A stretch of 64,000 nt of DNA. Origin: Physcomitrium patens (lineage: Eukaryota > Streptophyta > Bryopsida > Funariales > Funariaceae). This document shows, one piece after another, positions 4,753 to 60,765 of this stretch; positions within the stretch are counted from its first letter, which is position 1; each line of letters starts with the position of its first letter. The DNA lies in the NCBI RefSeq assembly GCF_000002425.4, contig NC_037266.1:1642903-1706902 (forward strand), written 5' to 3'. Position numbers and translations under genes: made by a program. The notes beneath the pieces were generated by a model. That model was not told the DNA's origin. It ran no database searches and saw nothing but the letters and a program-made list of their open reading frames with translations.

Positions 4753-5247
4753 TGTCACGGACACAAAATACAGACTTGAAATCTAACAAGAAGTTCAAGG
4801 AGAAGTGGCAGAACTAGATTAAACAGATGAGTACAAGAACAACACCAGAAAGGTGAGCTAGAACTCCAAGAGATGTGTTGTCGAGACTGAAGAACTCTTC
4901 AGCCTCGATCCCTATATATACTCCTACTTAGGAAGCTTCTCGAGCTACTTCTATTAACTAGAAAGCTTCTAGAAGGTTCCAAAGGCTTCCTTTCTAGAAG
5001 GTTCTAGAAACTTCTCGAGCTACTTCTATTAACTAAGAAGCTTCTAGAAAGTTCCAGGGGATTCCTTTCTAGAAGCTTCTAGAAACTTCTCTTCTAGAAG
5101 GTTCCAGAGACTTCCTTTCTAGAAGCTTCTAGAAACTTCTCTCTAAAAGGTTCCAGAGGCTTCTCTTCTAGAAGGTTCCAGAGGCTTGTTTTCTAGAAGG
5201 TTCTAGAAACTTCTCTTTAGAAAGTTCTAAGGAATATGTCCCTAACA
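4753..5247 (-). mobile_element. Solo LTR of the Gy1/Gy3 chromovirus group
   Basis: Starts TGTCACGG and ends CCTAACA on the plus strand, as the LTRs of Gy1 do. It is flanked by a perfect 5-bp target duplication TCTCA (4748-4752 and 5248-5252). No internal sequence is present, so it is the product of recombination between two LTRs. It lies inside the Helitron remnant and is therefore younger than it. On the minus strand it carries a TATA box, the AGTCTCGACAA block that would start the transcript, and long arrays of alternating TTC and GAA units. Confidence 0.95.
4992..5014. promoter_or_regulatory. Heat-shock-element array in solo LTR
   Basis: Five alternating units TTC-TA-GAA-GG-TTC-TA-GAA-AC-TTC, each on the exact 5-bp spacing required for heat-shock-factor trimers. 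Further partial arrays fill 4940-5225. The function is inferred from the known consensus (nGAAnnTTCn); the spacing is seen directly. Confidence 0.7.
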
Positions 5248-22216: not shown

Positions 22217-22777
22217 TGTCACGGCCATAATCATATAAGCTAATAATTACATATACAAATAGGTAGAAGTAAGTAAAAGTAGGTAAAAGTAAGTTAATTC
22301 TATAATATTTAATATGGAAGCTTCTTAGAAGCTTTCTAGATGCTCCTTTGACTTCATAGGTGTCTTTAATTGACTTTTTGGATTAGAAACGTGGTCAACA
22401 AGTTGGCCATATGCCACACATGTTGTTAGCTTGAAGATCAAGCTAACTATGTGGCCCACACGTAGAAAAACTTGCCTTGTAAGTCAAGGCATGTGTCCTA
22501 CAAAGTCAACACATATTGGAGGTCCTATAGAACGTCGCCATGTAGCCTCTAGTTAGATAATATATATAGAGACAAGAGTGAAGGCTTCTTCACTCTTGTC
22601 AACTCCTTTCTTGCTTCTAGTCTAGTTTCAAGGGTCTCTAGTTTTCTTGTCTTTTGGCAATAACCATTCTAGTTTCTCTTTCAATATATATATTTGTTTA
22701 TATATATTTTGTTACCTCTCTTTGAGTGAAGGCTCACTTGTCTGAATTGTTTTTTCATCGAGTTCTTGTCCTTGACA
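22217..22777 (+). repeat. Gy2 5' LTR
   Basis: 561 bases, TGTCACGG to CTTGACA. TATA box at about 22560-22567, transcript-start block ACTCTTGTCAA at 22592-22602. It contains two or three loosely spaced GAAGCTTC-type heat-shock half sites near 22,316-22,340, far fewer than the Gy1/Gy3 LTRs. Confidence 0.95.
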
Positions 22778-22779
22778 GA

Positions 22780-23941: not shown

Positions 23942-24080
23942 AGGCTAAAACAATAAGAACAAACTTGGGCTACTAACAAAGTTCTACGCTATCTTGAAGA
24001 GAATGACTACATCAACTATGGATTTTGATGGTGCTCTCTCCTCTTTTCTGTTTTCTAGATGAGCAAGCTTCAATAAGAAG

Positions 24081-27000
24081 CTATCGTCGAACCGGCTTGG
24101 GTTTCTCAAGATATCGTCGATGAAACTCCTGTACCTTTTGCGGTGCATTCGCGAGATTTTTGACCGGCTCCCATGTTCGTTCATTAATATCGTAACCGCT
24201 CCAATGCACAAAGTATTCTAATTTATCCCGTCTTTGCCATGAATCCAGGACCTTTTCCACCTCGTATTCTTCGTGGTTCTCTATTTCTATGCTAGGTGGT
24301 GGACATTGTACTCTTCCAAGAAAAGACGATTCTCGATAAGGCTCCAACAAAGAAACATGAAAGATAGGATGTACCTTCATAGTAGCTGGTAACTCCAGAC
24401 GATACGCTACAGGATTGATCTGCTTTTGGATAACAAATGGTCCCAATCTCCGATAGTCCAATTTGTCACATGGCCGCTTGGTCTTAATATTTCGTCGAAG
24501 CAGCCAAACTTTGTCCCCAATCGTGAATTTAGGTGCCTGATTCCGAAATTTGTCCGCGGACGCCTTGTAAGATTCTTGGGCAGTTTGCAATTGAAGCTTC
24601 AATGTAATTTGAAGCTACGAAAGCTCCTTCACCAATCCTTCAGCTGCCGGATTGTTAATCGTTGACGAACTCCATAAGTCAAGCTTCGGATGGTATCCAT
24701 AATTAGAAAAGAATGGCGTTTGTTGAGTTGACGCATGAAGGGTGTTGTTATATGCGAACTCGGCTAGCGGTAGATATGCGGCCCAATCATCTTGTTGATA
24801 GTTGATGGTGCAACGTAAATATTGCTCTAAAACTTGATTCACCCGTTCTGTTTGGCCGTCCGTTTGAGGATGAAATGCCGAAGAAAGCTTGATATCCACC
24901 TTCAATATCTCAAAAAGAGATTTCCAAAACTTTGACACAAACTGGGTTCCTCGATCCGATACGATATCATCTGGTAGACCATGATATCGATACACATTAT
25001 CAAGAAAGAGTCTTGCTGTGTCTTCGCTTGACGATGTCTTCTTGCAAGGGACAAAATGCGCCATCTTTGTAAGCCGGTCTACGACAACAAAAATGCTGTC
25101 AAATAAATTCGATGGTGGTAGATCCGTAATAAAGTCCATGGAAACCAAAGACCATGGTCGGCGCGGAATAGGCAATGGCTGTAGAAGTCCATAAGGCCGA
25201 TGTCGAGGGTTTTTGGATCTTGAACAAATGTCACAAGATACAACAAAATCTTTCACATCCTTCCACATTTGAGGCCACCAGAAATCGCGAGAAATAAGTT
25301 CCAAGGTCTTATTGAATCCAAAATGTCCCGCAGCTGGAAAGTCATGACGAGATTGAAGAACTCGGAGTCTTGCTGGCCCTTTTGGGATATACAACCGCTC
25401 TTCGAAATATACTAGATCTCCTTCCATCTTGAATTTATCATCACTAGCATGTTGCTTGATATCAAGGGCTAGAGAATCTTCAATGGTTGCGGCCCATACC
25501 TGGTCGAGGAAGTCAGCATCAATTGGTACAATAGCTGCATTGAGCCGAAATTTCTCTGGCTTCAACAATGTCGTGCACTGTTGATCAAATGCTGCATCTC
25601 CAGCCTTTGGCGTGAGATATGATCTCCTTGATAATGCATCGGACAACCCTTGTTGCTTCCCAGGCCGATAAGTAATAATAAAGTCAAACCTGGATAGCGA
25701 CATACTCCACCGAGCTTGACGCCGATTCAAAATCCGAGCCGACATAAAATACTCCAAATTCTTGTGATCTGTATATACAGTCACTGGATGTGCAGTTCCT
25801 TCGAGAAAGTGGTGCCACTCTTGGAAAGAATCTACTATAGCAAGGAGTTCCTTATCGTGGATCTCATAGTTGATCTCAGCAGCAGAGAATTTTCGAGAAT
25901 AGAACGCAACTGGATGGAGCTTCTCATCTACGCCCATCTGTGAAAGTACAACTCCCAAAGCAAAATCCGAAGCATCTGTCTCCAAATAAAAGGCCTTTGT
26001 AAAGTCCGGATGTACCAAGATTGGAGCTGTAGTAAATACCATCTTCAAATCTTGAAATGCTTTTTCTACGATAGGTCCCCATTCGAGCTTGTCCTTGTAC
26101 GTTAACCGAGTGAGAGGGGCAGCAACTTGAGAATAATTCTTGATGAAGATCCGATAGTAGTTAGCAAATCCAAGAAAACATTGTACGTCCCTAACCATCT
26201 TTGGAACTTCCCAAGACATGATTGCTTCCACCTTCTTTGGATCCATCTTCAAGCCTTCCGTAGTAGCGATGAATCCCAAAAACTCCATTTCAGTTTGGTG
26301 AAATAAGTACTTCTCCAATTTGGCATAGAGTCCTTGCTCCCGTAGTTTTTTGAGTACCAGACGAACGTGCTTCTCATGTTCTTCTTCGTTCTTAGAAAAT
26401 ATCAAAATATCATCTAGATAGATGACAACAAAATCGTCTAGATGCTCTCGAAAGATGTCATTCATCATGTGTTGAAAGACCGCTGGAGCATTAGTAAGAC
26501 CAAATGGCATGACATTGTATTCAAAATGGCCATACCTTGTTCGGAAAGCTGTCTTCCATTCATCTCCTTCCTTGATTCGCACAAGGTTGTAAGCTCCCCT
26601 TAAGTCAATCTTTGTAAAGATCCTTGCACGCCCAAGTTGTTCTAGAAGACCAGAGATCAAAGGCAGTGGATAGCGATTCTTTTTTGTCACCTTGTTGAGA
26701 CCTCGATAGTCCACGCACATCCGTAGTGAGCCATCCTTCTTCTTCACAAATAAGATTGGTGCTCTAGCTGGCGACTTCGAATGACGGATGAAGTTCTTGG
26801 CTAGATTCTCGTCAATGTACTTCCGCAACTCAGTCAACTCCGTCTGCGACAAATTGTAGATTGGTCCAAAAGGTGGTTGTGCTCCTTCTTGCAATTCAAT
26901 GGCACAGTCATAGGGTCGATGCTCTGGCAGCATATCAGCATTCTTCTTTTCAAAGACATCTTTGAATTCTTCATACTGCTTTGGAATAACCAAAGTCAGA

Positions 27001-27641
27001 GTTGCATCTTCTCGAGTCGAAGTTGCGAAGATGATAAGAGGTGTATTTTGCTTGGCTTCCTTCATGAAAGCCCTTGCATCTATAAACAAGGATTTGTTTC
27101 TAGACATTTTCTTGGCAGATTCCACCTTCAAGGAGTTTGTTGGAAATGTCACTTTCCGCAACTTCCAATCTATCAATGGATTATATCTATCAAGCCAAGA
27201 TAGTCCCAAAATGATAGGACATGAAGGGGACTTGATAACATTAAACACAATATTACTCTCATGGTTTTCAAGACGTACCTTCAATGGTTTAGTTTCATGG
27301 ATAACATTGCCCGAAGACAATGGTCGTCCGTCTATGACTTCTACATGGACAGGCTTAAGTTTCTTTACAAGAGAAATATTGTGAAGCTTGGCAAACTCTT
27401 CATCTATAAAGCAAGCGGATGCACCCGAGTCTAATAAAGCATCGACTTGTAGTTCTTGAATACCCAAATGTAAAGGTACCATAAAACAATCTGAAGGTTG
27501 AGCTGAGAGAAAGGGACCTTGATTAATTTTGGATGTTGAGATGTCCAGCCGCACGGTCCCTATTGTGGCTGGGCGTCCTTGTTTTCCTGCATGCTTGTAC
27601 TCCTGAGTCTTGTTGTTTGAGGCTTCTGTTTCTTCCGACAA
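24081..27641 (-). CDS. Gy1 pol: PR-RT-RH-IN-chromodomain
   Basis: The pol frame opens before the gag stop in a different frame and overlaps it by about 80 bases, as in families that use programmed frameshifting. Visible in order: protease LLDSGAS (Asp at about residue 71), reverse transcriptase with VIYLDDILIF, RNase H (LETDASDFALG), integrase zinc-binding domain (HDFPAAGHFG, then CDICSRSK), integrase core (SMDFITDLPPSN, SSAFHPQTDGQTERV), and a C-terminal chromodomain (LEYFVHWSGYDINERTWEP). The enzymes would copy and integrate the element. About one break overall. Confidence 0.95.
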
Positions 27642-28609
27642 TCTACAGCTTTATGGCCCGCTTCTCCACAATATAAACACAAGTTTTGTTCAAACCGTCG
27701 CTTCCTTTCCTCAGCTGTGAGGGGTTTGAAACGTACCACATCAATTTGCATGGGTTCAGGATCTGTGGAGTGATTCTCTGGACCTTTTGAAAATGTAGCA
27801 AATGCTCCATCATTTCTCCAGCCTGATCGTCTTTCTTGTCGTAATTCAAAGAGGCGATTGTTACAAATAATTGCTTGAGATATAAGTTCTTTTAAAGTAT
27901 CCGCCTTAGGCATGGTGATCAATAAGTTCTTCACATCATCTCTCAGTCCATATCGAAATCGTGTCATGAACGCCTTATCATTCCAATCAAGATCACATGT
28001 AAGCTGTTGAAATTCTGCAGCATAGATTGCAGCAGAACGTGATCCTTGTCGCAGATTTTGTATCTTTCTTTCAGCCACTCTTTCTCGATCGCTATCTCCA
28101 AACGCAGTAGTAAGTCTTTCTATGAAAGCCTCTAGGTCGTACAATATTGAAGAATCCTTCTCCAATAGTGAAGCAAGCCAAGAGCGAGCATTTCTTGATA
28201 GAAGAGTACCTATGAAAGCAACCTGGGTAAATCCATTCGGATAACGAGAAGGGTATAGGCGTAGGTAAAGCCGTACTTGTTGCACAAAACCTCGAAAGTT
28301 GGCTCTTGTTCCGTCAAACTTGTCTGGCATACTCGCTTTTGGTTCTTTCATACTAATCCTTGAAGTATCTATAGGGGTCGTATGTGACACATGTCTTGCT
28401 TCTCTCAGTCGAATAATCTCTTGTTGTAGGCTAAGAATTTTGCGTCTAGCTTCTTCAGTCATTAGATCAATTTGAGGTTCTTTACTTGGATTGCGAAGAA
28501 ATGCAATCTCCTTTCGTACACTATTCATAAGAGCTTGAAGATCTGCAAGAGTTGCCACTCTATTGTCTACTTGTGGAGATGCACTGTCTATGACCTGGTC
28601 TACTTCCAT
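27560..28609 (-). CDS. Gy1 gag (349 aa)
   Basis: Whole frame of 349 codons. The capsid part is around MPDKFDGTRANFRGFVQQV, and there is one CCHC zinc knuckle near the C-terminus (CLYCGEAGHKAVDC, spacing C-X2-C-X4-H-X4-C). The N-terminal 90 residues are predicted helical (LQALMNSVRKEI, KILSLQQEIIRLREA). It forms the particle shell and packages RNA. The closely similar gag of Gy3 supports the start. Confidence 0.93.
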   Translation of the reverse strand: MEVDQVIDSASPQVDNRVATLADLQALMNSVRKEIAFLRNPSKEPQIDLMTEEARRKILSLQQEIIRLREARHVSHTTPIDTSRISMKEPKASMPDKFDGTRANFRGFVQQVRLYLRLYPSRYPNGFTQVAFIGTLLSRNARSWLASLLEKDSSILYDLEAFIERLTTAFGDSDRERVAERKIQNLRQGSRSAAIYAAEFQQLTCDLDWNDKAFMTRFRYGLRDDVKNLLITMPKADTLKELISQAIICNNRLFELRQERRSGWRNDGAFATFSKGPENHSTDPEPMQIDVVRFKPLTAEERKRRFEQNLCLYCGEAGHKAVDCRKKQKPQTTRLRSTSMQENKDAQPQ

Positions 28610-28746
28610 ATTTAGAGAATAGATGGATTAAAATTTTGAGAGAAGAAGAAATTGCTAAGTTTCTTGGAGAAAATTGTAGCACTACCTGTCACTAAAACCT
28701 ACTCGAAGAAGAGAATAGAAAAAAAAAAAACACTAAACGATTTCAA

Positions 28747-28778
28747 TTTTAGAGGAGGGTAATCCGCAACCTCTAAAA
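28747..28778 (-). other. Gy1 leader hairpin (one of about three)
   Basis: Nine perfect pairs (TTTTAGAGG with CCTCTAAAA) around a 14-nt loop (TTGCGGATTACCCT on the minus strand). Related repeats occur at about 28,905-28,930 and 29,010-29,042, within leader repeat units of roughly 110-170 bases. It lies between the 5' LTR and gag, where packaging or dimerisation signals usually occur. Confidence 0.7.
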
Positions 28779-29123
28779 ATGCCTCAATGCTTTCGAGAAG
28801 AGGGGTAATCCGCACTCTATCAAGAAGGCAAAGCTCTGAAATCGATGTTAACAGTCTTTTCTACTAGCTATGCTAAACAAAAAGAAGGAATTAATATCAG
28901 TCAAAGAGAGGGTAATCCGCAACCCTTAGAATGCTCAAGTATCTCCAAGGAAAGGGGTAGTCCACTCTCTGCCTCAAAGAACTAAGCTCTGATATTGTGA
29001 TTGAGAAAATATGAGTTTAGAGGAAGGTAATCCGCAACCCCTAAAGCGCTAGAATACCTTCAAGAAGAGGGGTAATTCGCTCTCAAACAAGAAGGATTCA
29101 GCTCTGATATTAAGATAAAGGTA

Positions 29124-29134
29124 AGTCTCGACAA
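29124..29134 (-). promoter_or_regulatory. Gy1 self-primer binding site
   Basis: On the minus strand TTGTCGAGACT begins two bases after the 5' LTR. It is perfectly complementary over 11 bases to AGTCTCGACAA in that LTR (29264-29274, minus strand), about 30 bases downstream of the TATA box. Confidence 0.75.
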
Positions 29135-29136
29135 AC

Positions 29137-29577
29137 TGTCACGGACCAAAAATACAAACAAGAAATCTAAACAAGAAGTTCAAGAAGAAATGACAAGAAC
29201 TAGATTATCAGATGAGTACAAGAGCAACGCCAAGAGAATTGAGCTAGAGCTTCAAGAGATGCGTTGTCGAGACTGAAGAACTCTTCAGCCTCGACTCCTA
29301 TATATACTACTGGCCTATGGTTCTAAGGAAGCTCATCAAGAAGCTTCTCAAGAACTATGAAGCTTCTCGAGCAACTACCCAAGAGCTAGGAAGCTTCTCA
29401 AGTAACTTCCTAGAATCTACTAGAATATTCTAAGAATCTTCTAGAGCCTTCTAAGAGAATCTTTGAAGAATATTCTAAGAGAATATTCAAGGAATCTTCT
29501 GGAAGTTTCTAGAGACTTCTTTCTAGAAGGTTCTAGAAACTTGTCTCTAGAAAGGTCTAAGGACTATGTCCCTAACA
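29137..29577 (-). repeat. Gy1 5' LTR
   Basis: 441 bases. In element orientation: U3 with heat-shock arrays, TATATATAGG at about 29297-29306, then the presumed RNA start AGTCTCGACAA at 29274-29264. Differs from the 3' LTR at about 6 sites. Confidence 0.96.
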
Positions 29578-30617
29578 GCAACAAGATTGGCAGGAAGTGA
29601 AGATATAGAAATGGTTGGAGTTGCTTTAACATCTGCACCAAACCATGTCCTTTTTCTTATGGTGGAACGCCCTTCAAATATTAGAAAAACAAGAATTACC
29701 CTACCCGAGAAGTTTGATGGCACCAGATCCAAGTTTCGAGGATTTATCAATCAAGTGCAACTAGTGATTGAACTTCAACTCCAAAGCTATCCAACTCTAG
29801 GATCACAAGTTAGATTCATTGGTATGCTTCTTTCAGGTTCAGTACTATCATTGTTTTCATCTTTTCTTGAACAACGAGATCCAATATTGGATAATCTAGA
29901 GGCTTTTTTGGCGGAGTTTCGATCCATGTATGGAGAGCATGATACAATTCGTATTGCAACCAATAAGATCCGTATTTTATAACAAGGCAATCGATCAGTA
30001 ACGTTATATACTTCATAATTTCGACAACTTGTAACTGATATCAAGTGGGATGATGCTGCACTTATTAGCCAATTTCTCTACGGATTACAATATGAGGTAA
30101 AAAAAATTAATGCTCAACTTACCTGATCCTCAAACATTGAGTCAAGCAATTGACTTTGTTGTGAAGTGTGACAATCGCCTTTTTGAATTCCGATCTGAGA
30201 ACCGTATAAGTGGACCTCAACGTTACTATAATTCAATGGCAACACCAACACCTCTTCAACACATACATTCAGAAGTAGAGGATATGCAAATTGATGCAGT
30301 ACGTTTCAAACCTCTTACTGAGCAAGAAAAGACTCGTCGTCGTCAAGAAGGATTATGTTTATATTGTGGAGAACCAAAGCACACTGCTCAATATTGTCCA
30401 AAGAAACGACGCAATCACAAAATGAGGAGTATGGGTGTGAAAGAAGACAATATGTCAGAAAACAAGTTTGTCCAGCTACAATAGGGACCATGCGATTGGA
30501 ACCTTGCACAACATCTAGTAAAGGTCCTATTCTCTCCTCAGAGCCCTCTCCTTGTTTTATATTAAATGTTATTTTAGGACCTAAACATTACAAAGTCTCT
30601 GCCTTGTTAGATTCTGG

Positions 30618-32036
30618 TGTCGTATTACGTGCTTTCCTGCTCGAGAACGCGCCGGGCGTCTGGTTGTAGAAGGTAGTATGGAGATTCGCCGATAGTCAAG
30701 CAGTCTATCAGTTTTTGACTGCTGGAATATAAACGACTGCAACAATGTACCGTAAATCTATACGGATGCTCTTCGACTGCTTGTCGAAGTCTTTTTTTTT
30801 TTTCCCCAGCCGATAGGTCTCTAGACGTTACAGAGAACCCCGAACAACCCAAATTGTTAATCTTCAATACCCCTTTGTACTTACGATCTTGTATCCACTG
30901 ATTGTCCTGTTAGATTAACCCAATAAATTTCATTCACTCCGCATACTCAATCCTATAGACACCCCTTTAATCCTTCAATCACAGACGTAACTCGATTTTA
31001 CAAAACAGTCAAGAGTATTCAAACCCACTTCATTTAAAAATCCCGATTCACCATTACAACACTGACTTCAGCAGCGACTGCCTCAGTCTTCCCAAAACTC
31101 TACGAAGAAGAAAAATCCAAATTCTATGTCTTTCCTTCCCCGACCCGAAGCATGAAGCTCCTCTCTCTAATTCCCTTGATCTTCAAAAACCTCCAATGAA
31201 AACCGAACTGGTAACCTTGCAGAAGCTTGAAAACTAGCTTCCCCCCCCCCGATTCCTCGAAAAAAAAAACCTCCCCCCTCAAAACTATATCCCCCCTAAC
31301 CTTATCCTCTGAATTTCTTCAATCTTCCGTCTTAGATCCGGAATTGGCTCCCACCTCAAGCTTGGATCCGAAATTGGCTCTCTCCGTCAAGCTTTCTCCT
31401 CCGTTTTTACCTTTAAGAAATCCATTTACCGAAAATAATGTTCCCTGAAACGGCACAGAGAACAGGACAGCCTGAAACAAAATCGAACCCCATAATCGGG
31501 ACCACATTGAGTCGCCCGACCAATTCAGGTCCTATATTGGAAAAGATGCCCGTAGTAACCTGGATGTTCCCGTAATTAGACCACATTGAGTCGCCCGACC
31601 AATTCAGGTCCAATATTGGGAAAGATGCCCGTAGTAACCTGGATGTTCCCGTAATTGGGTCAAATTGGTCCTCGCGTCAGATTGACTAAGACCCGTAGTA
31701 AGACCTGGATTTCCCGTAATTAGACTGCATTGGGTTGACCGGCCAATTCAGGTCTCATATTGGATAAGAGGACCCGGATTGGATTCTCGAAATTGGATCC
31801 AATTGGCTCTTCAAACCCGTCGTGTGAATTGGTCCTTCTCTTCCTGCTGACTCCCGTTATTGGAATCGAATGGAGCATTTCAGTATGCCCCGGCTGACTG
31901 TAACAGAGTGACTGAACCTGACCACTCAGTATTTGCACTGGAGTTGGTCGATGCTCCCAATATTCGAGGTAACTGAATATTAATAAAATTCTCCTTTCTT
32001 TTTATTTTCACTGTATACTCGTGTTACAACACGACA
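30618..32036 (-). mobile_element. TGTCG-family solo LTR inside Gy2
   Basis: Starts TGTCGTATTACGTGC and ends TTACAACACGACA, with short inverted ends TGTCG/CGACA. It interrupts the Gy2 protease at its DSGA region. It is GC-richer than its host and has no coding frame. The reverse complement matches the copy in Gy3 (54412-55681) over its length. Flanks CTGG and CAGG suggest a degraded 4-5 bp duplication. It contains a 79-bp tandem duplication (units starting 31501 and 31580) absent from the Gy3 copy. Most simply a solo LTR of an element whose body is not in this window. Confidence 0.8.
31501..31658. repeat. 79-bp tandem duplication in TGTCG LTR
   Basis: Two near-identical 79-base units beginning ACCACATTGAGTCGCCCGAC at 31501 and 31580. 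A diverged third relative begins near 31,724. The Gy3 copy holds the corresponding segment once. Confidence 0.85.
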
Positions 32037-35000
32037 CAGGAGCCTCAACGTGTTTTTTAGATGAAGAATTTACTAAAAGACATAGCATATCTTTAGTAAA
32101 GAAAACTAAACCTGTTCATGTAGAAGTCATAGATGGTCGTCCATTGTCTTCTGGAGATATTACTCACGAAACCCTTCCTATAGAAGTAATAATCAATGGT
32201 CATAATAGTTTTGTAGTATTTAATATTATTAGATCTCCTTCTAATCCAGTCATTTTAGGTTTATCATGGTTAGAAAAATACAACCCTCAAATAGACTGGA
32301 TTTCTCAAACTCTTACTTTTTCTAAAAGTATAACTAATAGTGTAATTAATCAAGTAGAGAGTCATGAGTCCAATTCAATTAAACCCGTATTTATAGGTGC
32401 AAAAGCTTTTTTGCATGCTGCTATGAAAGAATCATCATACATTATTTATGCTACACCCGTTTCTACTGGTGAAAAGACTTCAACTGGCATTCCAAGCTAA
32501 TATCAAGAATTTCAAGATGTATTTGAAAAAAAGAATGCGGATACACTCCCAGAACATCGTCCCTATGATTGCTCAATTGACCTTCAAGAAAGAGCACAAC
32601 CGCCATTCGGACCAATCTATAGTTTATCACAAAATGAGTTGGTTGAACTCAAAGAGTATATTGAAGAAAATCTAGCCAAGAATTTCATACGCCATTCTAA
32701 ATCTCCAGCAAGAGCTCCAATTCTATTTGTGAAGAAAAAAGATGGATCATTGCGGATGTGTCTTGATTATCGAGGACTCAACAAGATTACCATCAAAAAT
32801 AGGTATCCACTACCTTGAATATCTGGACTTCTTGATCAGCTGAATCAAGCTAAGATCTATACAAAAATAGATCTTCGGGGAGCATATAATCTAGTACGCA
32901 TTAAAGACGGAGATGAATGAAAGACTGTGTTTCGAACTAGGTATGGACATTTTGAATACAATGTCATGCCTTTTGGACTTATAAATGCACCAGCAGCTTT
33001 TCAACATCTAATGAATGATGTTTTTTGAGAGTTTTTGGACGATTTTGTGGTATGTTATCTAGATGACAACTTGACCTATTCTAAGAATCCAGAAGAATAT
33101 GAACTTCATGTTTGTCGTGTGTTACAAAAATTAAGAGATGCACGACTCTATGCCAAGATAGAAAAGTGTGTATTCCACACTACTCAAGTCGATTTCTTAG
33201 GTTACATCATTTCAAATGATGGACTTATGATGGATCCTAAGAAAGTTCAAACTATTATACATTGGAAGATCCCAAAAACAATAAGAGATGTCCAATATTT
33301 TTTGGGATTTGTCAACTACTATCGGATCTTCATCAAAGACTTCTCTCGAGTTGCAGCTCCACTTACACGTTTGACTTGTAAAGACAAATTCCAATGGAAT
33401 CAAGAAGCGGAAGTTGCTTTTGAATCTTTAAAGACAGCATTTGTTTGTGCACCAATCTTGTATCGTGTTAATTTTTCCAAAGCATTCTTTATGGAAACAG
33501 ATGCATCGGATTTTGCTCTGGGTGCGGTTTTATCACAAATAGGAATAGATGACAAACTTCATCCAGTAGCCTTTCATTCAAGAAAATTCTCAGCAGCAGA
33601 AATCAATTATGAGATCCACGACAAAGAACTTTTTGCAATTGTGGATTCTTTTCAAGAATGGCGTCATTATCTAGAAGGCACTTCTAGTCCAGTCACCGTA
33701 TATACGGATCACAAGAACCTCGAATATTTTATGTCAGCACGCATATTAAATCATCGCCAAGCTCGTTGGAGCATGTCTTTATCAAGATTCGAGTTCATCA
33801 TCACTTATCGGCCAAGAAAGTAACAAGGTTTATCCGATGCCTTGTCTAGACGTTCTTATCTTGCATCAAAAGAAGGAGATGCAGCTTTTGAGCAATAAAG
33901 AACCGTTTTTTGAAGCCGGAGCAATTTCATCTTCGAGCAATAAAATCAACATCGACTGTTGATTTAACTTTTCTTAAGCAAGTCCAGTTAAGTATGTCTT
34001 CAGACCCTCTTGTTCGTGATATCAAGAACAATTCTTCTAAATCTCATGATCCATCTAAATTTGAATTCAAGAACAACCTACTCTAATTCGAAGGACGCCT
34101 ATATGTTCCAGAAGGAGAAGCACGTTTACGTGTTCTTCAAGCTCGTCACGACTTCCCAGCAGCAGGACATTTTGGATATAATAAGACTTTGGAGCTGATA
34201 TCTAGGGATTTTTGGTGGCCTCAAATGTGGAAAGGAGTTAAAGATTTTGTACAATCATGTGATGTTTGCTCAAGATCGAAAACTCCTCATCATCAAACTT
34301 TTGGACTTCTTCAGCCATTACCCATTTCAGAACAACCATGGTCTTCTGTTTCTATGGACTTCATCACGGATCTTCCAATCTCAGGTTCTTATGACTCTAT
34401 ATTCGTGATAGTAGATCGTTTTACCAAGATGGCACATTTTGTACCATGTACAAAATCTATCACAGGTGAAGAAACAGCTAAGCTCTTTCTTGACAATATC
34501 TATCGCTATCATGGATTACCCAAGGATATTATATTAGATAGGGGAACTCAATTTGTATCAAAATTTTGGTGGACTCTTTTCAAGATTCTAAAAGTGGATA
34601 TAAAACTATCTTCGATATTCCATCCTCAAACTGATGGACAAACGGAGTGTGTTAATCAAATTTTGGAGCAATATTTAAGATGTACCATTAATTACAAATA
34701 AGATGATTGTACAACTCTTTTACCATTGGCAGAGTTTGCTTACAATAACACGATACATTCTTCTACAAAACAAACACCTTTCTTTGTTAATTATGGTTAT
34801 CATCCATGACTTGATACTTTTGACTTTTCAAAAGTTGATAATCCTGCTGCGAAAGATTTGACAATTCATTTATCAGAGCTACATGCAACGATGAAGGCGC
34901 AGTTAAAAGAGGCTCAAGAACAACAAAAGGTCAATGCGGATGTCTATCGAAAGGAACAACCATCATTCATCTTGGGTGATAAGGTATGGCTACTTCGTCG

Positions 35001-35494
35001 CAATATCAAGACCACTCGTCCTTAAGACAAGTTGGACTATCGAAGGCTAGGACTATTTTCTATTTCTGCACAAATCAATCTAGTTGCATATCGTTTACAT
35101 CTACCGGAGTCAATGAAAATCCATCCAGTATTTCACGTATCTCTTCTTGAACCATACAAGACAGTGGACATACCAAGAAGACGACAAGCTCCACCTCCTC
35201 CTATAGAAGTGGACAATAATGAAGAGTTTGAAATAGAAGAAGTCCTAGATTCAAGGCGATGCCAAAATAAATTAGAATATCTTGTCCATTGGCGTGGATA
35301 TGGTATTAGTGAACGCACATGGGAGCCAATAATGAATCTTACAAATGCAGCAAAGGCGGTGGAGGCTTTTCATCAACGACGTCCATCAAAATCAAGATAA
35401 AAATCTTCTTTATAAAAGAAACAACATCTAGGCAAGATAACATTCTACTTTCAATTCTTGTTTGTAGCTTCGTTGTAGTAGTGATGCTCAGGAG

Positions 35495-35917
35495 ATGGAG
35501 AACCAACAACCAGCGGATTCAACTCAAGAGCCTTCATTTGTTGACCTGCCGGACGAGACATTACAATTGTCACAACCTTGAAGATGACGTAATCGAGATG
35601 AAGATCTTCAAGAACGACATGTTCTTCCTCGAATAGATGGCAAGATACAATGTATTTGGTATCACGATTTGGAAAGGGACTCTCGATGTTTGGTGATTTT
35701 GCTAGAGGTAGGAACAACTCCTCATGGTATTCCAAATATTCTATTCGAAGGAAGTTACGAAGGCCTCAACAATGATCAAATAACTGGGTGGTCTTCCCGC
35801 CCTAGTATGGGACACTACCAATGGTTGAGAGGTCCTATCAATCATCTTCGAAGAGAACAAAGATCAGAGTATGTGGCAAATACAATTCCTCGTATTATAG
35901 ATTTTCTCAACATATGA
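35495..35917 (+). pseudogene. Gy2 accessory ORF
   Basis: Sense-strand frame between the chromodomain and the purine tract. Its C-terminal part carries MGHYQWLRGPINHLRREQ and ends IIDFLNI, clearly related to the whole accessory ORFs of Gy1 and Gy3 although the LTR family differs. The N-terminal part is acidic and less conserved. I recognise no known domain. About one break. Confidence 0.75.
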
Positions 35918-35958
35918 TGACCGCTCCTTGTGGAACTCGTCTTTAGAAGGGGGGGTAA

Positions 35959-36519
35959 TGTCATGGCCATAATCATGTAAGCTAATAATTACATATACAA
36001 ATAGGTAGAAGTAAGTAAAAATAAGAAAAAATAAGTTAATTCTATAATATTTAATATGAAAGCTTCTTAGAAGCTTCTTAGATGCTTCTTTGACTTCATA
36101 GGTATCTTTAATTGACTTTTTGGATTAGAAACGTGGTCAACAAGTTGGCCATATGCCACACATGTTGTTAGCTTGAAGATCAAGCTAACTATGTGGCCCA
36201 CACGTAGAAAAACTTGCCTTGTAAGTCAAGGCATGTGTCCTACAAAGTCAACACATATTGGAGGTCCTATAGAACGTCGCCACGTAGCTCCTAGTTAGAT
36301 AGTATATATAGAGACAAGAGTGAAGGCTTCTTCACTCTTGTCAACTCTTTTCTTGCTTCTAGTCAAGTTTCAAGGGTCTCTAGTTTTCTTGTCTTTTGGC
36401 AATAGCCATTCTAGTTTCTCTTTCAATATATATACTTGTTTATATATATTTTGTTACCTCTCTTTGAGTGAAGGCTCACTTGTCTGAATTGTTTTTTCAT
36501 TGAGTTCTTGTCCTTGACA
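35959..36519 (+). repeat. Gy2 3' LTR
   Basis: 561 bases, TGTCATGG to CTTGACA, directly after a purine tract and followed by the CCTAG duplication. Differs from the 5' LTR at about 20 sites counted by eye, 18 of them transitions. Confidence 0.95.
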
Positions 36520-48966: not shown

Positions 48967-49854
48967 TAAAAATTTAATAATTATATTACTATTGTGTAAA
49001 TTTATATGGATATTATTATTAAAATATTTATCTTGTATTACTCAATAATAAGTTGTTTTGTATATTAGATAAGACATGCATGTTTAATGGAAAGGGAGTA
49101 TTATTCTAGGACCATCACAATTATCCTTAGAATCTTGATCGGCGCCATTTTTTAGAAAGATAATTACAAAAGAGACTTAATTGTAGCTTTGTAGCTTTGT
49201 AGCTTCCTTACTTCAAAAAAAAAAGATAAAATGAGGATGAATAAAAAGAAGAAGAAGGCAATAACATTATCTTATATCTAGACAATTTTCACTTGAATTA
49301 TGTGATAAGTGTGTGAAATTTGAGTGACATTTTTTTCATCTTCTACAATAGCAATAGTCTCTATAGCATTTCATCAGTAATCTTCTTTATTAAAAGGTAT
49401 TCCATGGTATTATCTTATGATGCTTAAGAGCACATGCAAGAAAAACCTAAGCTTTAGTTAATTTGTTACTTTCTTCGTTTGCTTGAGCAACTCTTTTTTT
49501 TTCTTGATTCTTGTGAGTTAGGATTCAAGAAAGAGTCCATTAGTTCGTAACTATTAATAGAAAGCAAAATACCATTGTGAGTATAATTGAGTAATAAACA
49601 TTTGATCTTCTATGTTGGTATAAAGGTGGTAATTGTTATGTTGCAATCAAGTAGATGTAAAGATGATGGTTTGCTTGAAGAGTGAAAAAGAAGGAGATGA
49701 GAAGGTGAAAAAAAAATAAATAAATAATGACTAATTTTGTTATATTGTCCTAACTCACTATTTGTAGCATTCAAATGTATTTTTGATAACTAGATTAATA
49801 GAAGGCAATACAAATGATTAATTTTGAACATGAACATAGCTACATATAACTTAG
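48967..49854. other. AT-rich spacer, nothing recognised
   Basis: No frame of interest. A purine-rich GGAAAGGGAGT near 49,090 could be the purine tract of another lost element, but no supporting domain follows. Confidence 0.5.
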
Positions 49855-50312
49855 TGTTAGGGACATAGTCCTTAGAACCTTCTAGAGACAAGTTTCTAGA
49901 ACCTTCTAGAAGCAAGTCTCTGGAACCTTCTAGAAGCTTCTTAGTTGGTAGAAGATGTTAAGGACATAGTCTTTAGAACCTTTTAGAGATAAGTTTCTAG
50001 AACCTTCTAGAAGCAAGTCTCTGGAACCTTCTAGAAGCTTCCTAGTTGGTAGAAGTTGCTTGAGAAGCTTCCTAGTTGGTAGAAGTTGCTTGAGAAGCTT
50101 CCTAGTTGGTAGAAGTTGCTTGAGAAGCTTCCTATATAGGAGTATATATTGGAATCGAGGCCGAAGAGTTCTTCAGTCTCGACAACACATCTCTTGGAGC
50201 TCTAGCTCACTTCTTTGGTGTTGTTCTTGTATTCATCTGATTAATCTAGTTCTTATCAGTTCTTCTTGAACTTCTTGTTAGATCTCGAGTCTATATTTCT
50301 AAGTTCGTGACA
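49855..50312 (+). repeat. Gy3 5' LTR with duplicated head and 30-bp repeats
   Basis: TGTTAGGG to CGTGACA. The first 101 bases are repeated from 49956. Three copies of a 30-base unit (CCTAGTTGGTAGAAGTTGCT and ten more bases) run through about 50,041-50,130. TATA box at about 50,143-50,150, presumed RNA start AGTCTCGACAA at 50175-50185. Confidence 0.95.
49894..49911. promoter_or_regulatory. Heat-shock-element array in Gy3 LTR
   Basis: TTCTAGAACCTTCTAGAA, four units in perfect register. The 101-base duplication of the LTR head doubles the array (second copy near 49,995-50,012). Upstream of the TATA box, so placed to act as a promoter element. Confidence 0.7.
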
Positions 50313-50314
50313 GT

Positions 50315-50325
50315 TTGTCGAGACT
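50315..50325 (+). promoter_or_regulatory. Gy3 self-primer binding site
   Basis: TTGTCGAGACT, two bases after the 5' LTR, perfectly complementary to AGTCTCGACAA at 50175-50185. Same sequence and same offset as Gy1. Confidence 0.75.
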
Positions 50326-50404
50326 TCACTCACCTCAGATATCAGAGCTAGTTTCTTCCTCGTTATAGTGCAGACTACTCCTCTACTTGGAAGTATACTA
50401 GCAT

Positions 50405-50548: not shown

Positions 50549-50592
50549 CCAATATTGTCTTCTTGTAGAGTCATTTCTGTCCTTCTCTTAGA

Positions 50593-51618
50593 ATGGCCAG
50601 AGGCCAAGACATTAGTATGATGGAAAGTTCGAAGTCCAAGTTGGATGCTATCATGAATGCCCTCGCTACGTTATCGCAAAGAACTGCAGAGATTGAAGGA
50701 GTCATGGCAAGGCTTCATAATGATGGAGCATCTGGGATGGCACAATCTAGGTTGCACCAGCCTCAAACTTCTGCACTTGGAGAAGCAACTTTGCCTCAGG
50801 TTCGACAAGCATCACTGATTCTACAAAATAAGGAGCCCCAAGTTAGCCTTCCGGACAAGTTCGATGGTACACGTTCCAAGTTTTGAGGATTCGTCAATCA
50901 AATCAAGTTCATAACAGTTTTACAGCTCGAACGCTATCCAACGGAGGAGTCACGTGTTGGACTTATTAGAACCTTACTTACAAGGCAAGCTCTATCATGG
51001 TTTGCTCCTTTGTTTGAGAAACAATCATCCATATTAAACAACTTTGAAACCTTTTTGGATGCATTTGCGGAAGCATTTGGTGAACACGACAAGGTTCGAT
51101 GGATTACAACAAAGATCTGGTCACTACGACAAGAGATGCGTTCTACATCAGTCTATGCATCGGACTTCAGGCAAGTAGCATGTGACATCAATTGCAACGA
51201 AGAAGCATTGATGAGTCAATTCTATTGGGATTTAAGGGATGATGTGAAGGATTTGCTTTTAACTCTTCTTGATCCACAAATGCTCAACGAAGCTATTAGC
51301 CAAGCTATGAAGTGTGATAATCGTCTATTCCAATGCTGCCAAGATCAATATTCAAGACAACATATGGTTTGTCACGTCCCAACTATGTCGACAAGCAGTG
51401 TGAATTCACATTCAGAGGTAGAAGACATGCAAATTGATGCGGTACGTGCCAAATCCCTTACTCTAGAAGAAAAAAAGCACCGCATGGAGGAAGGTCTATG
51501 CTTGTATTGCGGTGAAGAAGGCCACAAAGTTGGTAACTGCCCCAAGAAGCAAAATCGACGTATTTTTAAGACTAGGGGTGCGTTTGTTCAGAAAAACGAG
51601 GATGCCCAGCTACAATAG
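50593..51618 (+). pseudogene. Gy3 gag region
   Basis: From MARGQDISMMESSKSKLDAI through the capsid motif LPDKFDGTRSKF to a CCHC zinc knuckle (CLYCGEEGHKVGNC) near 51,500-51,540. Homologous to Gy1 gag throughout. Broken, so listed as a fossil gene. Confidence 0.92.
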
Positions 51619-51623
51619 GAACC

Positions 51624-54600
51624 GTGTGGCTGGATAGTGAAATATCGCAACAACAACCAGGTTCCTTTCTTTCTGCTCAACCTATCCTTTGCTTTACAAT
51701 CCCTTTGCTTATTGGCCCTCAGAAACTGAGAACCTTAGCATTATTAGATTTAGGAGCATCTGCTTGTTTCTTAGACGAAGATTTTGCAAAGTGTCATAAG
51801 ATCCCTTTAGTACAAAAATCCAAACTTGTTCACGTTGAGGTCATAGATGGGCAACCTTTATTGTCTGGTAGTGTCATCTATGAATCAGAACCTATAGAAG
51901 TGACGTTTAAGGACCGTAGTAGTCATATTATTTTCAATATTATTAGAACCCCATCAAATCCTGTTATTCTTGGTCTTTCTTGGTTGGAAAAGCATAACCC
52001 ATCCATAGATTGGAAGTTACGAAAGATGACATTTCCCACAAAACCACCCAAGAGCAAGCCTAGTAGAAAATCTCGAATAGAGAAATCTTTATTCATTGGA
52101 GCAAGAGCGTTTATAAGATCGTCCAAGGAAGGCACACCGTTTGTCATTTATGCGGTTTCAACTATCGGGGAGAAGATCTCGATAGTAAGTATACCTGAGC
52201 AATATAAGGATTTTAAAGACGTGTTTCAAAAGGAAAATGCCGACATGCTATTGGAACACCGACCATATGATTGCGCCATAGACTTGCAGGAAGGAGTACA
52301 ACCGTCTTTTGGCCCAATCTACAATCTATCGCAGACGGAGTTGGCGGAGTTACGAAAGTACATCGACAAGAATCTAGCCAAGAACTTCATCCACCATTCA
52401 AAATCATCAGCTGGAGTACCAATCTTATTTGTGAAGAAGAAAGATGGCTCGTTGCGGATGTGCGTGGACTATCGAGGCCTCAACAAAGTAACAAAGAAGA
52501 ATCGTTATCTGTTACCCTTGATTTCTGGTCTCTTAGAACAACTTCGACATGCAAGGATCTTTACAAAAATTGATCTAAGGGGAGCTTACAATCTTGTACG
52601 AATCAAGGAAGGAGATGAGTGGAAGACAGCGTTCCGTACAAGGTATAGCCATTTTGAGTATAATGTCATGCCCTTTGGTCTTACCAATGCTCCAGCGGTC
52701 TTTCAACATATGATGAATGACATTTTTCGAGAGCACCTTGACAATTTTATTGTCATCTATTTGGATGATATTTTGATATTCTCCAAAAATGAGGAAGAGC
52801 ATGAAAAGCACGTTTGTTTGGTCTTGGAGAAACTACGCGAGCGAGGACTATATATCAAGTTGGAGAAGTGTTTATTTAACCAAATAGAGATGGAATTTCT
52901 GGGGTTCATTGCGACTACAGAAGGCTTGAAGATAGACCCCAAGAAGGTGGAAGCAATCGTATCATGGGAGGTTCCGAAGACGATTAGAGATGTACAATGC
53001 TTTCTTGGTTTTGTTAACTTCTATCGGATCTTCATCAAGAACTACTCTCAAGTTACTGCTCCTCTCACTGGGTTGACATGCAAGGATAAGCTGGAATGGG
53101 GACCTCTAGTAGAGAAGGCGTTTCAAGACTTGAAGACCGCATTTACTACAGCTCCAATCTTGGTACATCCAAACTTTACAAAGGCCTTTTATTTGGAAAC
53201 TAATGCTTCGGATTTTGCTTTGGGAGCTGTACTTTCACAAATGGGAGAAGACAAGAAGCTCCATTTGGTTGCATTCTATTCTCGAAAGTTCTCTGCTGCT
53301 GAAATCAATTATGAGATCCACGATAAGGAACTTCTTGCTATAGTGGATTCTTTCAAAGAATGGCATCATTTTCTTGAAGGAGCTACACACCCAGTGATCG
53401 TATACACAGATCACAAGAATTTGGAATATTTCATGTCGGCTCGAGTTCTAAATCGATGTCAAGCTCGATGGAGTATGTTGCTATCTAGGTTCAATTTTGT
53501 TATCACTTATCAACCTGGAAAGCAGCAAGGACTATCTGATGCCTTATCAAGGAGATCGTATCTTGTACCAAAGGCTGGAGAAGTAGCGTTTGATCAACAA
53601 TATACGACATTGTTGAAGCCAGAGCAATTTCAGCTTTGTGCTACTATTGTGCCAATTGATGCTGACTTCTTGAATCATGTACATGCCGTGACCATTGAAG
53701 ATTTAGTAGCCATTGATATTAAGCAGTATGCCAATGACGACAAGTTCAAGGTGGAGGGAGATCTTTTATACTTTGAGGAGCGGTTGTATATTCCAAAAGC
53801 ACCAGCACGACTCCGAGTTCTTCAATCTCGCCACGATTTTCCAACTACGGGACATTTTGGATTCAACAAGACCTTGGAGCTTATTTCTCGAGATTTTTGA
53901 TGGCCCCAAATGTGGAAGGATGTGAAAGATTTTGTCCTCTCCTACGACATCTGTTCAAGATCCAAGAATCCTCGGCATCGCCCTTATGGACTCCTATAGC
54001 CATTGCCGATTCCACGTCGACCATGGTCTTCAGTTTCCATGGACTTCATCACGGACCTGCCATCATCGAACTCAATTGACAATATCTTTGTCGTGATAGA
54101 TCAGCTTAAAAAGATGGTGCACTTTGTCCCTTGCAAGAAGACATCGTCCAGTGAAGTCACAGCAAGGCTCTTTCTCGATAATGTATATTGATATCATGGA
54201 CTACCAGATAATATCGTATCAGATCGAGGAACCCAGTTCGTATCAAAGTTTTAGAGATCTTTCTTTGAGATACTGAAAGTGGATATCAAGCTTTCTTTGG
54301 CTTTTCATCCTCAAACTGATGGCCAAACGAAACGGGTGAACCAAGTCTTGGAACAATACTTACGATGCAGCATCAACTATCAGCAAGACAATTGGACCAC
54401 ATATCTACCGATGTCGTGTTGTAACACGAGTATATCGTGAAAATATAAAGAAAGGGGACTTTTATTAATGTTCAGTTACCTCGAATATTGGGATCAACGA
54501 CCAACTCGAGTGCAAATACTGAGTGGCCAAGTTCAGTCACCCCGTTACAATCAGCCGGGGCATACTGAAATGCTCCATTCGATTCCAATAACGGGAGTCA

Positions 54601-56370
54601 GCAGGAAGGGAAAGGACCAATTCACACGACGGGTGAGCCTGGTTCGAAGAGCCAATTGGATCTAATTTCAAGAATCCAATCCGGGTCCTCTTACCCAATA
54701 TGAGATCTGAATTGGTCGGGCAATCCAATGCAGTCTAATTACAGGAAAATCCAGGTCTTACTACGGGCCTCAGCTAATCTGACGCGAAGGACCAATTTGC
54801 TCCAATTACGGGAACTTCCGGGTCTTACTACTGGACTCTTAGCCAATATGAGACCTGAATTGGTTGGGCGACTCAATGTGGTCCCGATTACGGGGTTTTG
54901 ATTCTGTTTCAGGTTGTCTTGTTCTCTGTGCCGTTTCAGGGAACGTTGTTTTCAGTAAAAAGATCTCTTAAAGGTAAAAACGGAGGAGAAAGCTTTGACG
55001 ACGAGAGCCAATTTTGGATCCAAGCTCTGACGGTGGGAGCCAATTCCGGATCCAAGACGGAGGATTGAAGAAATTCAGAATTAAGGTTAAAAAATGAGAG
55101 GGGGGAGAATAAGTTTTGGGGGGGTTTTTTTTTGAAGGATCAGAGAGCTAGCTTCATGCTTCGCGCGGGGAAAGAAGACAGAGAATTGGGTTTTTTTTCT
55201 TCATAGGGTTTTGGGAAGACTGAGGCAATTGTTGCTGAAGTCAGTGTTGTAATGGTGAATTGGGATTTTTAATGAAGTGGGTTTGATTACTCTTGACTGT
55301 TTTGTGAAATCGAGTTACGTCTGTGATGAAGAATTAAAAGGGTGTCTATAGGATTGAGTATGCAGAGTGAATGAAATTTATTGAATTAATCTAACGAGAC
55401 AGTCCATGGATACAAGATCGTGAGTATAAAGCAGCATCGAAGATTAACAGTTTGGATTGTTCGGGGTTCTCTATAACGTTTAGAGACCTACCGGCTGGGG
55501 CAAAAAAGACTTTGGCGAGCAGTTGAAGGACATCTGTATAGATTTACGATGTATTCTTGTAGTTGTTTATATTCCAATAGTCAAAAACTGATAGACTGTT
55601 TGAATATTAGCGAATCTCCATACTACCTTCTACAGCCAGACGCCCGGCACGTTCTCGAGCAGGAAAGCACGTAATACGACACCGCTAGCCGAGTTTGCAT
55701 ATAACAATACCCTCCATACGTTGACTCAATACACACCATTCTTTTCCAAATATGAATATCATCCGAAGCTTGATTTATTGAGTCCGTCAACAAATAACAA
55801 TCCAGTAGTTGAAGGATTTACGAAACAACTATCAGAGCTTCAAAATATGTTGAAGCTTCAATTACAATCCGCTCAAGAATCCTACAAGGTGTCTGCAGAT
55901 AGATTTCAAAATCAAGCACCTACTTTCAAAATTAGAGATAAAGCATGGCTTCTTCGACGGAATATCAAGTCTAAGCGACCATGTGATAAGTTGGACTATC
56001 GAAGATTGGGACCATTTATCATCCAGAAGCAAATCAATCCAGTGGCATACCATCTGGAATTACCGGCTTCTATGAAGGTACATCCAGTCTTTCATGTTTC
56101 TCTTTTGGAGCCTTATCGAGAGTCGTCTTTTCCTGGAAGAGTGCAATGTCCACCACCTAGTATTGAGATCAAGAACCACGAGGAATGCGAGGTTGAAAAG
56201 GTGTTGGATTCATGGTAAAGGTGGGGCAAGTTGGAGTATCATGTTCATTGGTGCGGCTATGACATTAATGAGCAAACGTGGGAGCCAGCTGAAAATCTTG
56301 CCAATGCGCCACAAAAGGTACAAGAGTTTCATCAACAACATCCTCATAAACCTAAGCCGGTTCGACGATA
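51624..56370 (+). pseudogene. Gy3 pol region: PR-RT-RH-IN-chromodomain
   Basis: Protease, RT (VIYLDDILIFSKNEEEHEKH), RNase H (TDHKNLEYFMSARVLNR), integrase zinc-binding region (HDFPTTGHFGFNKTLEL) and core (SMDFITDLPSSN), then a chromodomain near 56,225-56,330 (VHWCGYDINEQTWEP in part). Integrase is divided by the TGTCG LTR at 54412-55681. Several breaks besides that insertion. Confidence 0.93.
54412..55681 (+). mobile_element. TGTCG-family solo LTR inside Gy3
   Basis: Starts TGTCGTGTTGTAACACGAGT and ends CACGTAATACGACA. Removing it restores the integrase text seen in Gy1 around LAEFAYNNT. Flanks ACCGA and ACCGC suggest a 4-5 bp duplication. It matches the reverse complement of 30618-32036. 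A TATAAAG at about 55,425 could be its promoter. No coding frame of note. Confidence 0.8.
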
Positions 56371-56906: not shown

Positions 56907-57304
56907 TGTTAGGGACATAGTCCTTAGAACCTTCTAGAGACAAGTTTCTAGAACCTTCTAGAAGCAAGTCTCTAGAACCTTCTAGAAGCTTCTTAGTTGG
57001 TAGAAGATGTTAGGGACATAATCTTTAGAATCTTCTAGAGATAAGTTTCTAGAATCTTCTAGAAGCAAGTCTCTGGAACCTTCTAGAAGCTTCGTAGTTG
57101 GTAGAAGTTGCTTGAGAAGCTTCCTAAATAGGAGAATATATTGGAATCGAGGCTAAAGAGTTCTTCAGTCTCGACAATACATCTCTTGGAGCTCTAGCTC
57201 ACTTCTCTGGTATTATTCTTATATTCATCTGATTAATCTAGTTCTTGCCAGTTCTTCTTGGACTTCTTGTTAGATCTCGAGCCTGTATTTCTGTGTCCGT
57301 AACA
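56907..57304 (+). repeat. Gy3 3' LTR
   Basis: 398 bases, TGTTAGGG to CCGTAACA, after AAAGGAGGGGG and followed by the CTTAG duplication. It has the duplicated 101-base head (second copy from 57008) but only one copy of the 30-base unit. Confidence 0.95.
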
Positions 57305-57309
57305 CTTAG

Positions 57310-60010: not shown

Positions 60011-60230
60011 AGCCCGCTCACTACCTCCCACAAGTCTCGCATTCGGAGGCTCCAACTCCAGAGCTCTCCATCTAGTGTCCAGCAGCACCATCACCAAAAT
60101 CACTAATTCTTGTCCTCTCTCACTTCCCTCTTATCATCATTGCATTTCTGAATTGCCAGGGTCATCATTTGTGTTACTCGATCCGTCTGAGCTCTCACAA
60201 GTTGCTTTGTCGACGATCTATCTGCACGCA

Positions 60231-60765
60231 ATGGCTTCATCTAACACCATGTCAATCGCATCTGCGTTGTGCCTGGTGACTCTATTTGCCTCCGTGATCG
60301 TTCAGGTTGCTGCCCAAGAGCCAGCTTCGGCCCCCACGGCCACGCCTCCAGTTGGAGCTCCAACAGTACCCCCTCCCGCTGGGTCTCCTTTCCAGCCACC
60401 CACCAGTTCTCCTCCCGCTGCGTCGGGTCCAGCTTCAGTTCCTCCTCCACCACCATCACCCTCAGGTTCGACTGTTCGTGTTCTACGTCCTTTCCCGATC
60501 GATTCTATTTCAGATTGGAGCTTTTTAAGCTATCAGTTAGTGTTGGGGATGCGATGGACATGGTCAATATATGTAAGTACTTGAATAATTTCTGATTGTA
60601 GATACGTGGTTTTGAATTTTTGCAGCTGAGACCCCCACTGCCACAGACTCTCCTCCCGCCGCTGCAGGACCCGGACCCGCCACATCCCCATCTAGCGATG
60701 CCTTCACCGTGGCACCGACTGTTTCGATTGTGTTGATGAGCACCCTTGCTTACCTTCTTTACTAG
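60231..60765 (+). CDS. Classical arabinogalactan protein, GPI-anchored, two exons
   Basis: Exon 1 is 60231-60465 and exon 2 60626-60765. The intron runs from CAG|GTTCG to TTTTTGCAG| and joins in phase 1, giving 124 residues. Residues 1-28 form a signal peptide (MASSNTMSIASALCLVTLFA onward, cleaved before QEPAS). The mature part is rich in Pro, Ala, Ser and Thr with AP, SP, TP and VP dipeptides, the hydroxyproline glycosylation context for type II arabinogalactan. The C-terminus has a small-residue region (TSPSSDA) then a hydrophobic tail (TVSIVLMSTLAYLLY) typical of a GPI-anchor signal. Such proteins sit on the outer plasma membrane or wall and act in growth and signalling. An in-frame upstream ATG exists, but this start gives the proper signal peptide. 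Confidence 0.9.

Follow-up and report, generated by a model that had tools for sequence, protein, structure and literature searches.

The window, by which we mean the whole 64,000-nucleotide stretch of Physcomitrium patens DNA that was analyzed, contains a Ty3/gypsy retrotransposon with both long terminal repeats (LTRs) on the plus strand, in which an earlier sequence-only reading had seen a Tf1-type self-priming signature. We call it the reported element, and the coordinates of its features and of those of its relatives are collected in Table 1. The two LTRs of the reported element are identical at 373 of 398 aligned bases, and they are unequal in length, with 458 nt for the 5′ and 398 nt for the 3′ copy. 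Short units around AGAAGCTTCCTAGTTGGTAGAAGTTGCTTG recur in the U3 region of the family A LTR (49855-50140), which also contains a duplication of some 100 nt. The reported copy is dead, with a stop codon inside gag and a broken pol. A second element of the same family lies on the minus strand; its LTR is about 76% identical to that of the reported element (BLAST), and its pol matches PF00385 (E 3.4e-14) and PF24626 (E 2.6e-21). Of the two integrase domains present there, the chromodomain and SH3_Tf2-1, the frames scanned in the reported element gave SH3_Tf2-1 alone. Both elements carry target duplications and show identical 11-mer spacing.

A second family, B, is represented in the window by an element at 22211-36519 that is split by the minus-strand second family A element (29577-23097). 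Stretches matching the B locus L060 were located at 22211-23087, 29580-30617, and 32039-33287, and the 3′ LTR at 35956-36519. This B element is apparently further interrupted by another insertion around 30617-32039, and the whole interval appears to be a nest of Tcn1-like elements. The minus strand also carries an older relative of family B (48885-43112), in which pieces near 48885-48517 and 45349-45155 resemble LTRs; its self-primer and site, starting from 48610, form 10 of 11 pairs when G-U is included. Elsewhere in the window, a gene for a sperm-tail PG-rich (PF07004) protein is found at 18685-19467, which is consistent with a host that has flagellated sperm; the closest named relative of the protein is from Ceratodon (44%), followed by one from Sphagnum (30%). 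The open reading frame at 60012-60584 reads like a secreted arabinogalactan-type plant protein, and a stretch of N runs from about 356 to 1030, beside a copia-like fragment (DIVRYKARLVAKGYSQ).

Table 1. Positions in the window of the features of the reported element and of its relatives.
Feature	Position	Strand	Remarks
5′ LTR, reported element (family A, subfamily A4; TG...ACA)	49855..50312	+	
3′ LTR, reported element	56907..57304	+	11-mer copy at 57167-57177, without primer site behind it
Target duplication CTTAG, reported element	49850-49854 and 57305-57309		5 bp, flanking the element
TATA box TATATATT, reported element	50143..50150	+	starts 32 nt upstream of the 11-mer
Hairpin spanning the U3/R boundary	50155..50182	+	first 8 nt of the 11-mer lie in its 3′ arm
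Proposed RNA 5′ end and self-primer AGTCTCGACAA	50175..50185	+	
Candidate primer-binding site TTGTCGAGACT	50315..50325	+	2 nt (spacer GT) past the 5′ LTR
Position +12	50326..50326	+	hypervariable across copies of family A; would face the RNA cap under self-priming
TATCAGAGC, complementary to initiator tRNA-Met beside its CCA end	50340..50348	+	9 nt; families A and B
gag (Retrotrans_gag), reported element	50569..51618	+	stop inside at 50884-50886
pol part (protease, RT, RNase H, integrase start), reported element	51576..53900	+	
Integrase C-terminal part with SH3_Tf2-1 domain, reported element	55604..56218	+	pol broken between 53900 and 55604
5′ LTR, second family A element	29137..29577	-	self-primer at 29274-29264
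3′ LTR, second family A element	23097-23537	-	target duplication GTTGC
Candidate primer-binding site, second family A element	29124..29134	-	2 nt past its LTR
TATCAGAGC, second family A element	29109-29101	-	about 25 nt past the LTR, as in the reported element
pol, second family A element, with classical chromodomain (PF00385) and SH3_Tf2-1	24081..27650	-	two reading frames
Further family A LTR	4753..5247	-	11-mer at 4888-4878; no exact primer site adjoining
Self-primer ACTCTTGTCAA in the 5′ LTR, interrupted family B element	22592..22602	+	
Site TTGATAAGAGT, interrupted family B element	22780-22790	+	11 pairs only if G-U is counted

The sequence-only reading had described an 11-mer 2 nt past the 5′ LTR with an exact reverse complement within the same LTR, about 30 bases after the TATA box, and we found both where it had placed them: TTGTCGAGACT is the exact reverse complement of AGTCTCGACAA, and the last TATATA of the LTR begins 32 nt ahead of the latter. 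It had also noted that no TGG-initial site adjoins the LTR, and TGG is indeed absent from the first 25 nt past it, for which reason we rejected a tRNA site at the LTR edge. When the reported LTR was shuffled with its dinucleotides preserved and a complement to the 15 nt after the LTR was accepted anywhere within it, 4 of 5,000 shuffles gave a complement of at least 11 nt; the equivalent test with a family B LTR returned an 11-nt match somewhere in 14 of 5,000. Moreover, we scanned both strands of the window for exact instances of the layout (a TATA box, an 11-mer 26-35 nt further on, and its complement starting another 90-300 nt downstream, preceded by CA and a spacer of 0-12 nt). Only the reported and the minus-strand element fitted, both with a spacer of 2 and with 140 nt between self-primer and site. 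The plain 11-mer occurs seven times in the window, where 0.03 occurrences are expected. A looser scan, with G-U pairs and one mismatch allowed, was uninformative on the pairing, as it gave 64 matches at spacer 2 and similar numbers (41-65) at eight other spacers, although it did bring up the B element at 22592 and the older minus-strand relative at 48610. The free fold of the 201-nt leader of the reported element did not choose the primer pairing and was no better than those of shuffles (z -0.35). When primer and site were forced to pair, the ensemble energy of five leaders rose by 0.4-3.4 kcal/mol, and the forced folds of L001 and L005 matched the minimum energy.

We counted the pair genome-wide in the P. 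patens assembly, whose 101 contigs total 470.4 Mb. There, exact family A pairs are present at 871 places, and the reversed-pattern control at none. The family A-type leader pattern was found at 1,625 places, of which 100 were listed, and it was among these that family B came to light. Its exact pair, ACTCTTGTCAA/TTGACAAGAGT, occurs at 2,496 places, again with a control of 0 (the pattern is its own reverse complement, and the same places are reported from either strand), and there are 3,056 leaders of the B type. This copy number is of the same order as those of RLG1 and related gypsy families, a likeness drawn by abundance and type; RLG1 is a very abundant chromodomain gypsy element of P. patens that is expressed in protonema (PMC7466625). 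Scans of viral contigs gave no places with the exact pattern and, at the protein level, four pattern matches, none of them a relative.

In the family B locus L060 the self-primer ACTCTTGTCAA faces the site TTGACAAGAGT over exactly 11 nt and with a spacer of 2, as in family A, and in both families the complementarity stops at nucleotide 11 on the cleavage side. The distance from the TATA box to the 11-mer is 32 nt in family A and 29 nt in family B, with a C at -1 in both. Positions 2, 6, and 8 distinguish the self-primers of the two families, by transversion in two cases, and the partners in the site of L060 mirror all three. Co-variation of the two 11-mers across family members was the check that the sequence-only reading had proposed, and the expected change was found, in a single comparison of A against B, whose proteins are 42% identical in gag (313 aligned positions) and 64% in pol (first 491) where they overlap. 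Among the sampled copies we noticed no copy-by-copy compensation inside either family. The earlier reading had also asked whether other members lack the complementarity: besides the exact pairs counted above, 17 of 30 family A-type copies sampled regardless of the LTR 11-mer, by GTGACA...TATCAGAGC only, keep a match of at least 11 nt (11 or 12), and 13 do not. Several of these 13 are single changes and look like later decay, and C-to-T decay would seem to account for site variants including TTGTTGAGACT and TTGATAAGAGT. In L059, an old B copy, the match has decayed to 9 of 11.

For this pair of 11-mers, whose position, recurrence, and compensating change in a second family we have demonstrated, Tf1-type self-priming is very probably the explanation. 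The RNA would begin at the A of AGTCTCGACAA, with which the TATA spacing and the C/A start context agree, and its first 11 nucleotides would fold back and pair with the site that begins 2 nt past the LTR. RNase H would then cleave after nucleotide 11, and the freed 11-nt end would prime minus-strand DNA into U5. The plus strand would later copy the attached 11-nt RNA up to the cap, and the primer site would be renewed in every cycle from the RNA end of the element itself. At the cap, the plus strand may gain an untemplated or cap-derived base, which would enter the next copy. A site that is rewritten in each cycle would be expected to keep an exact match that stops at 11, with the next base randomized.

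That next base, +12, is hypervariable in family A. We compared 95 of the 100 listed leaders, which fall into four subfamilies that differ downstream, after dropping five rows. Minority bases occupy +12 in 27 of the 95 copies, with all four letters occurring (A1 7/23, A2 4/20, A3 5/19, A4 11/33; one row tied between A1 and A4 was placed in A1, and the total is 26 if it is moved), while the other listed positions together show a minority base in 64 of about 2,431 observations, summed by hand. We also built a tree of 46 copies with the +12 column left out, starting from 92 loci and 2 window stretches and dropping duplicates and loci that lacked the family A anchor. On this tree +12 needs 11 changes, the second highest value of 673 columns (mean 1.9), and the next highest between -17 and +70 is a C/T site with 9. 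The genomic loci that entered the +12 analysis all lie on contig 1, L001-L028 having been selected by exact 11-mers and L029-L058 by TATCAGAGC. At the same boundary, the second window element carries an additional T. In family B, +12 is A in 85, G in 13, and C in 2 of 100 leaders, that is, 15 minority bases; this backs the reading of +12 weakly, because +16 varies more (24 per 100) and +19 and +13 nearly as much (14 and 13), nearly all of these being C/T. The variation at +12 looks as if it were a record of the capped RNA end. G at this position is the complement of the C at -1, and part of it may come from RNA begun one base upstream.

The 11-mer also takes part in a hairpin over the proposed RNA start, in which its partner is the U3 sequence immediately upstream. 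The 56-nt start-site stretches of six LTRs in the window fold with -14.7 to -22.7 kcal/mol (z -2.11 to -5.50), and 200 shuffles gave none as good in four of the six and four as good in the other two. The 5′ LTR of the reported element has the poorest fold of the six (-14.7 kcal/mol, z -2.11, 4/200), the other five folding better. In a separate fold, the 3′ LTR of the same element gave -17.8 kcal/mol (z -3.49). Weaker folds came from two older related LTRs, at 14882 and 38810 (-11.1, with -7.9 in a different fold). A hand alignment of the U3 arms of A and B shows each of the three self-primer differences matched in the arm, so that the 11-mer is compensated twice, by the primer site and by the U3 arm. 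The RNA could form the hairpin in its 3′ LTR only, given that the 5′ copy would start at the 11-mer. Its role may be to hide the second copy of the self-primer, to take part in RNA 3′-end formation, or to serve a promoter function as DNA. Alternatively, it may be neutral, an imperfect palindrome repeatedly corrected by template switching.

The sequence-only reading was silent on a further feature of the leader, the 9-nt TATCAGAGC, displaced from the LTR, which is partially complementary to initiator tRNA-Met. Using a search pattern based on other plants, we located the host initiator tRNA-Met at 13 places within 3 mismatches; the complement of the host tRNA 3′ end with CCA added is TGGTATCAGAGCGAGG. 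In family A leaders, TATCAGAGCT is nearly invariant, with 0-2 changes per column, and TATCAGAGC is exact in 23 of the 28 loci L001-L028, which had not been selected for it. Family B leaders have it as well, in a search whose pattern demanded ATCAGAGC. The full 12-nt complement, TGGTATCAGAGC, follows an intact family A self-primer site at 298 places in the genome. As our best guess, the complement is left over from tRNA priming. A pretzel arm formed by TATCAGAGCTAG and the LTR was considered as the reason why this sequence is conserved and found unsupported when judged by eye: a 7-nt pairing is possible with CTAGCTC in the family A LTR, but subfamily A2 has altered the leader side of this pairing with the LTR piece still present, and no good LTR partner was seen by eye in family B.

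The same conservation, shared by both families, and the 298 places with all 12 nt would also suit a scheme in which tRNA-iMet itself primes from the displaced (TGG)TATCAGAGC, about 25 nt past the LTR, and the pairing of the 11-mers is merely structural. We consider this improbable. The TGG that the CCA end would need is missing ahead of TATCAGAGC in both family A elements of the window and is present in 15 of 100 listed A-type leaders (of 1,625) and in 0 of 100 listed B-type leaders (of 3,056); a primer 25 nt off the LTR would give the cDNA a long tail; and the presence, in two families, of an exact complement of the 11-mer right beside the LTR would go unexplained. Long-range complementarity alone is no proof of priming, and the 11-mers might instead pair as an RNA stem that serves packaging, translation, or dimerization in an element that uses another primer. 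Such a stem would hardly account for the position at the LTR edge, the length of exactly 11 nt, the variable base right behind it, or the resemblance to a group with a self-priming founder (PMC7175516, PMC10085805), and we think it unlikely. Chance or an artefact of sequence decay, to which the lone 11-nt matches in a few LTR shuffles of A and B might point, has next to no probability and is already refuted by the genome counts, as the expected spacing recurs in hundreds to thousands of copies, with a compensating change and with reversed-pattern controls of 0.

Self-priming, as the preferred reading, also fits the affiliation of the element, which looks Tf1/sushi (Tcn1)-like. A sequence at the presumed RNA start in its LTR is complementary to a site within 0-5 nt past the 5′ LTR, no complement of a tRNA 3′ end adjoins the LTR, judging from the lack of TGG in the first 25 nt, and the second family A element combines a chromodomain with an integrase SH3 domain of the Tf2 type. 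The surprise at a plant chromovirus that the sequence-only reading implied is not borne out, given SH3_Tf2-1, the chromodomain of the sister copy, and the named relatives: in the best 120 of 7,963 protein matches, 11 carry an organism name, nine of them frog, one the alga Closterium, one a chytrid, and none a seed plant. To our knowledge, self-priming outside yeasts rests on sequence inference. In Tf1 of Schizosaccharomyces pombe, the founder of Tf1/sushi, the RNA supplies its own primer, namely its first 11 nt, following RNase H cleavage (PMC7175516). Tf1 shares with the moss element the 11-nt RNA start complementary to a site adjoining the LTR, the chromodomain integrase, and self-priming in place of a tRNA (PMC7175516, PMC10085805); in Tf1, however, self-priming is proven by experiment, whereas in the moss host we infer it. 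According to PMC10085805, self-priming is a common feature of Tf1/sushi elements, a leader of three duplexes occurs in Tf1, Tf2, and several others, and the published tree includes PpatensLTR2 from P. patens.

The Tcn1 clade (REXdb) has in common with the moss element the host group, the chromodomain, and the lack of an adjoining tRNA site (PMC6317226). Neumann et al. (2019) positioned the Tcn1 elements of mosses and club mosses next to Tf1/sushi. With a criterion of at least 10 complementary bp starting 0-5 bp past the LTR, they predicted self-priming for most of these elements, and they stated that it is used in no other group of plant chromoviruses (PMC6317226). Another Tcn1-like chromovirus of a non-seed plant, SM-Tcn1 of Selaginella moellendorffii, differs in that Novikova et al. 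(2010) found evidence neither of a tRNA site nor of self-priming (PMC2864245). The reported element is possibly already within the 2019 survey. Thus, while the sequence tests sustain the Tf1-type mechanism of the sequence-only reading, its novelty for a plant chromovirus does not stand, as the element looks Tf1/sushi-like, and moss self-priming is not new in kind because it was predicted for Tcn1 elements in 2019 (PMC6317226). The accessible text of that survey yielded no analysis of compensation, of the boundary base, or of a hairpin, and the accessible open-access literature yielded no account of the boundary base, of the U3/R hairpin with its compensation, or of the displaced complement to tRNA-iMet.

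Finally, we put forward a wider reading, which is tentative and on balance doubtful: that the self-priming cycle is legible in the DNA. The site would be rewritten from the capped RNA end and leave a hypervariable base at the cap; the near-copy of the site in U3 would fold on the 11-mer in the 3′ LTR of the RNA only, hiding the second self-primer; and the tRNA-iMet complement would be a relic or, in the subfamily with all 12 nt, still a second primer site. Given thousands of copies in a moss, two or more families whose self-primers compensate, and a base that seems to record the RNA end in each cycle, the mechanism could be tested on cDNA and on the copies that already exist. Shifts of a lineage between tRNA priming and self-priming would be illuminated by a retained tRNA-iMet complement, and, if the wider reading is true, the subfamily with all 12 nt would catch such a switch.
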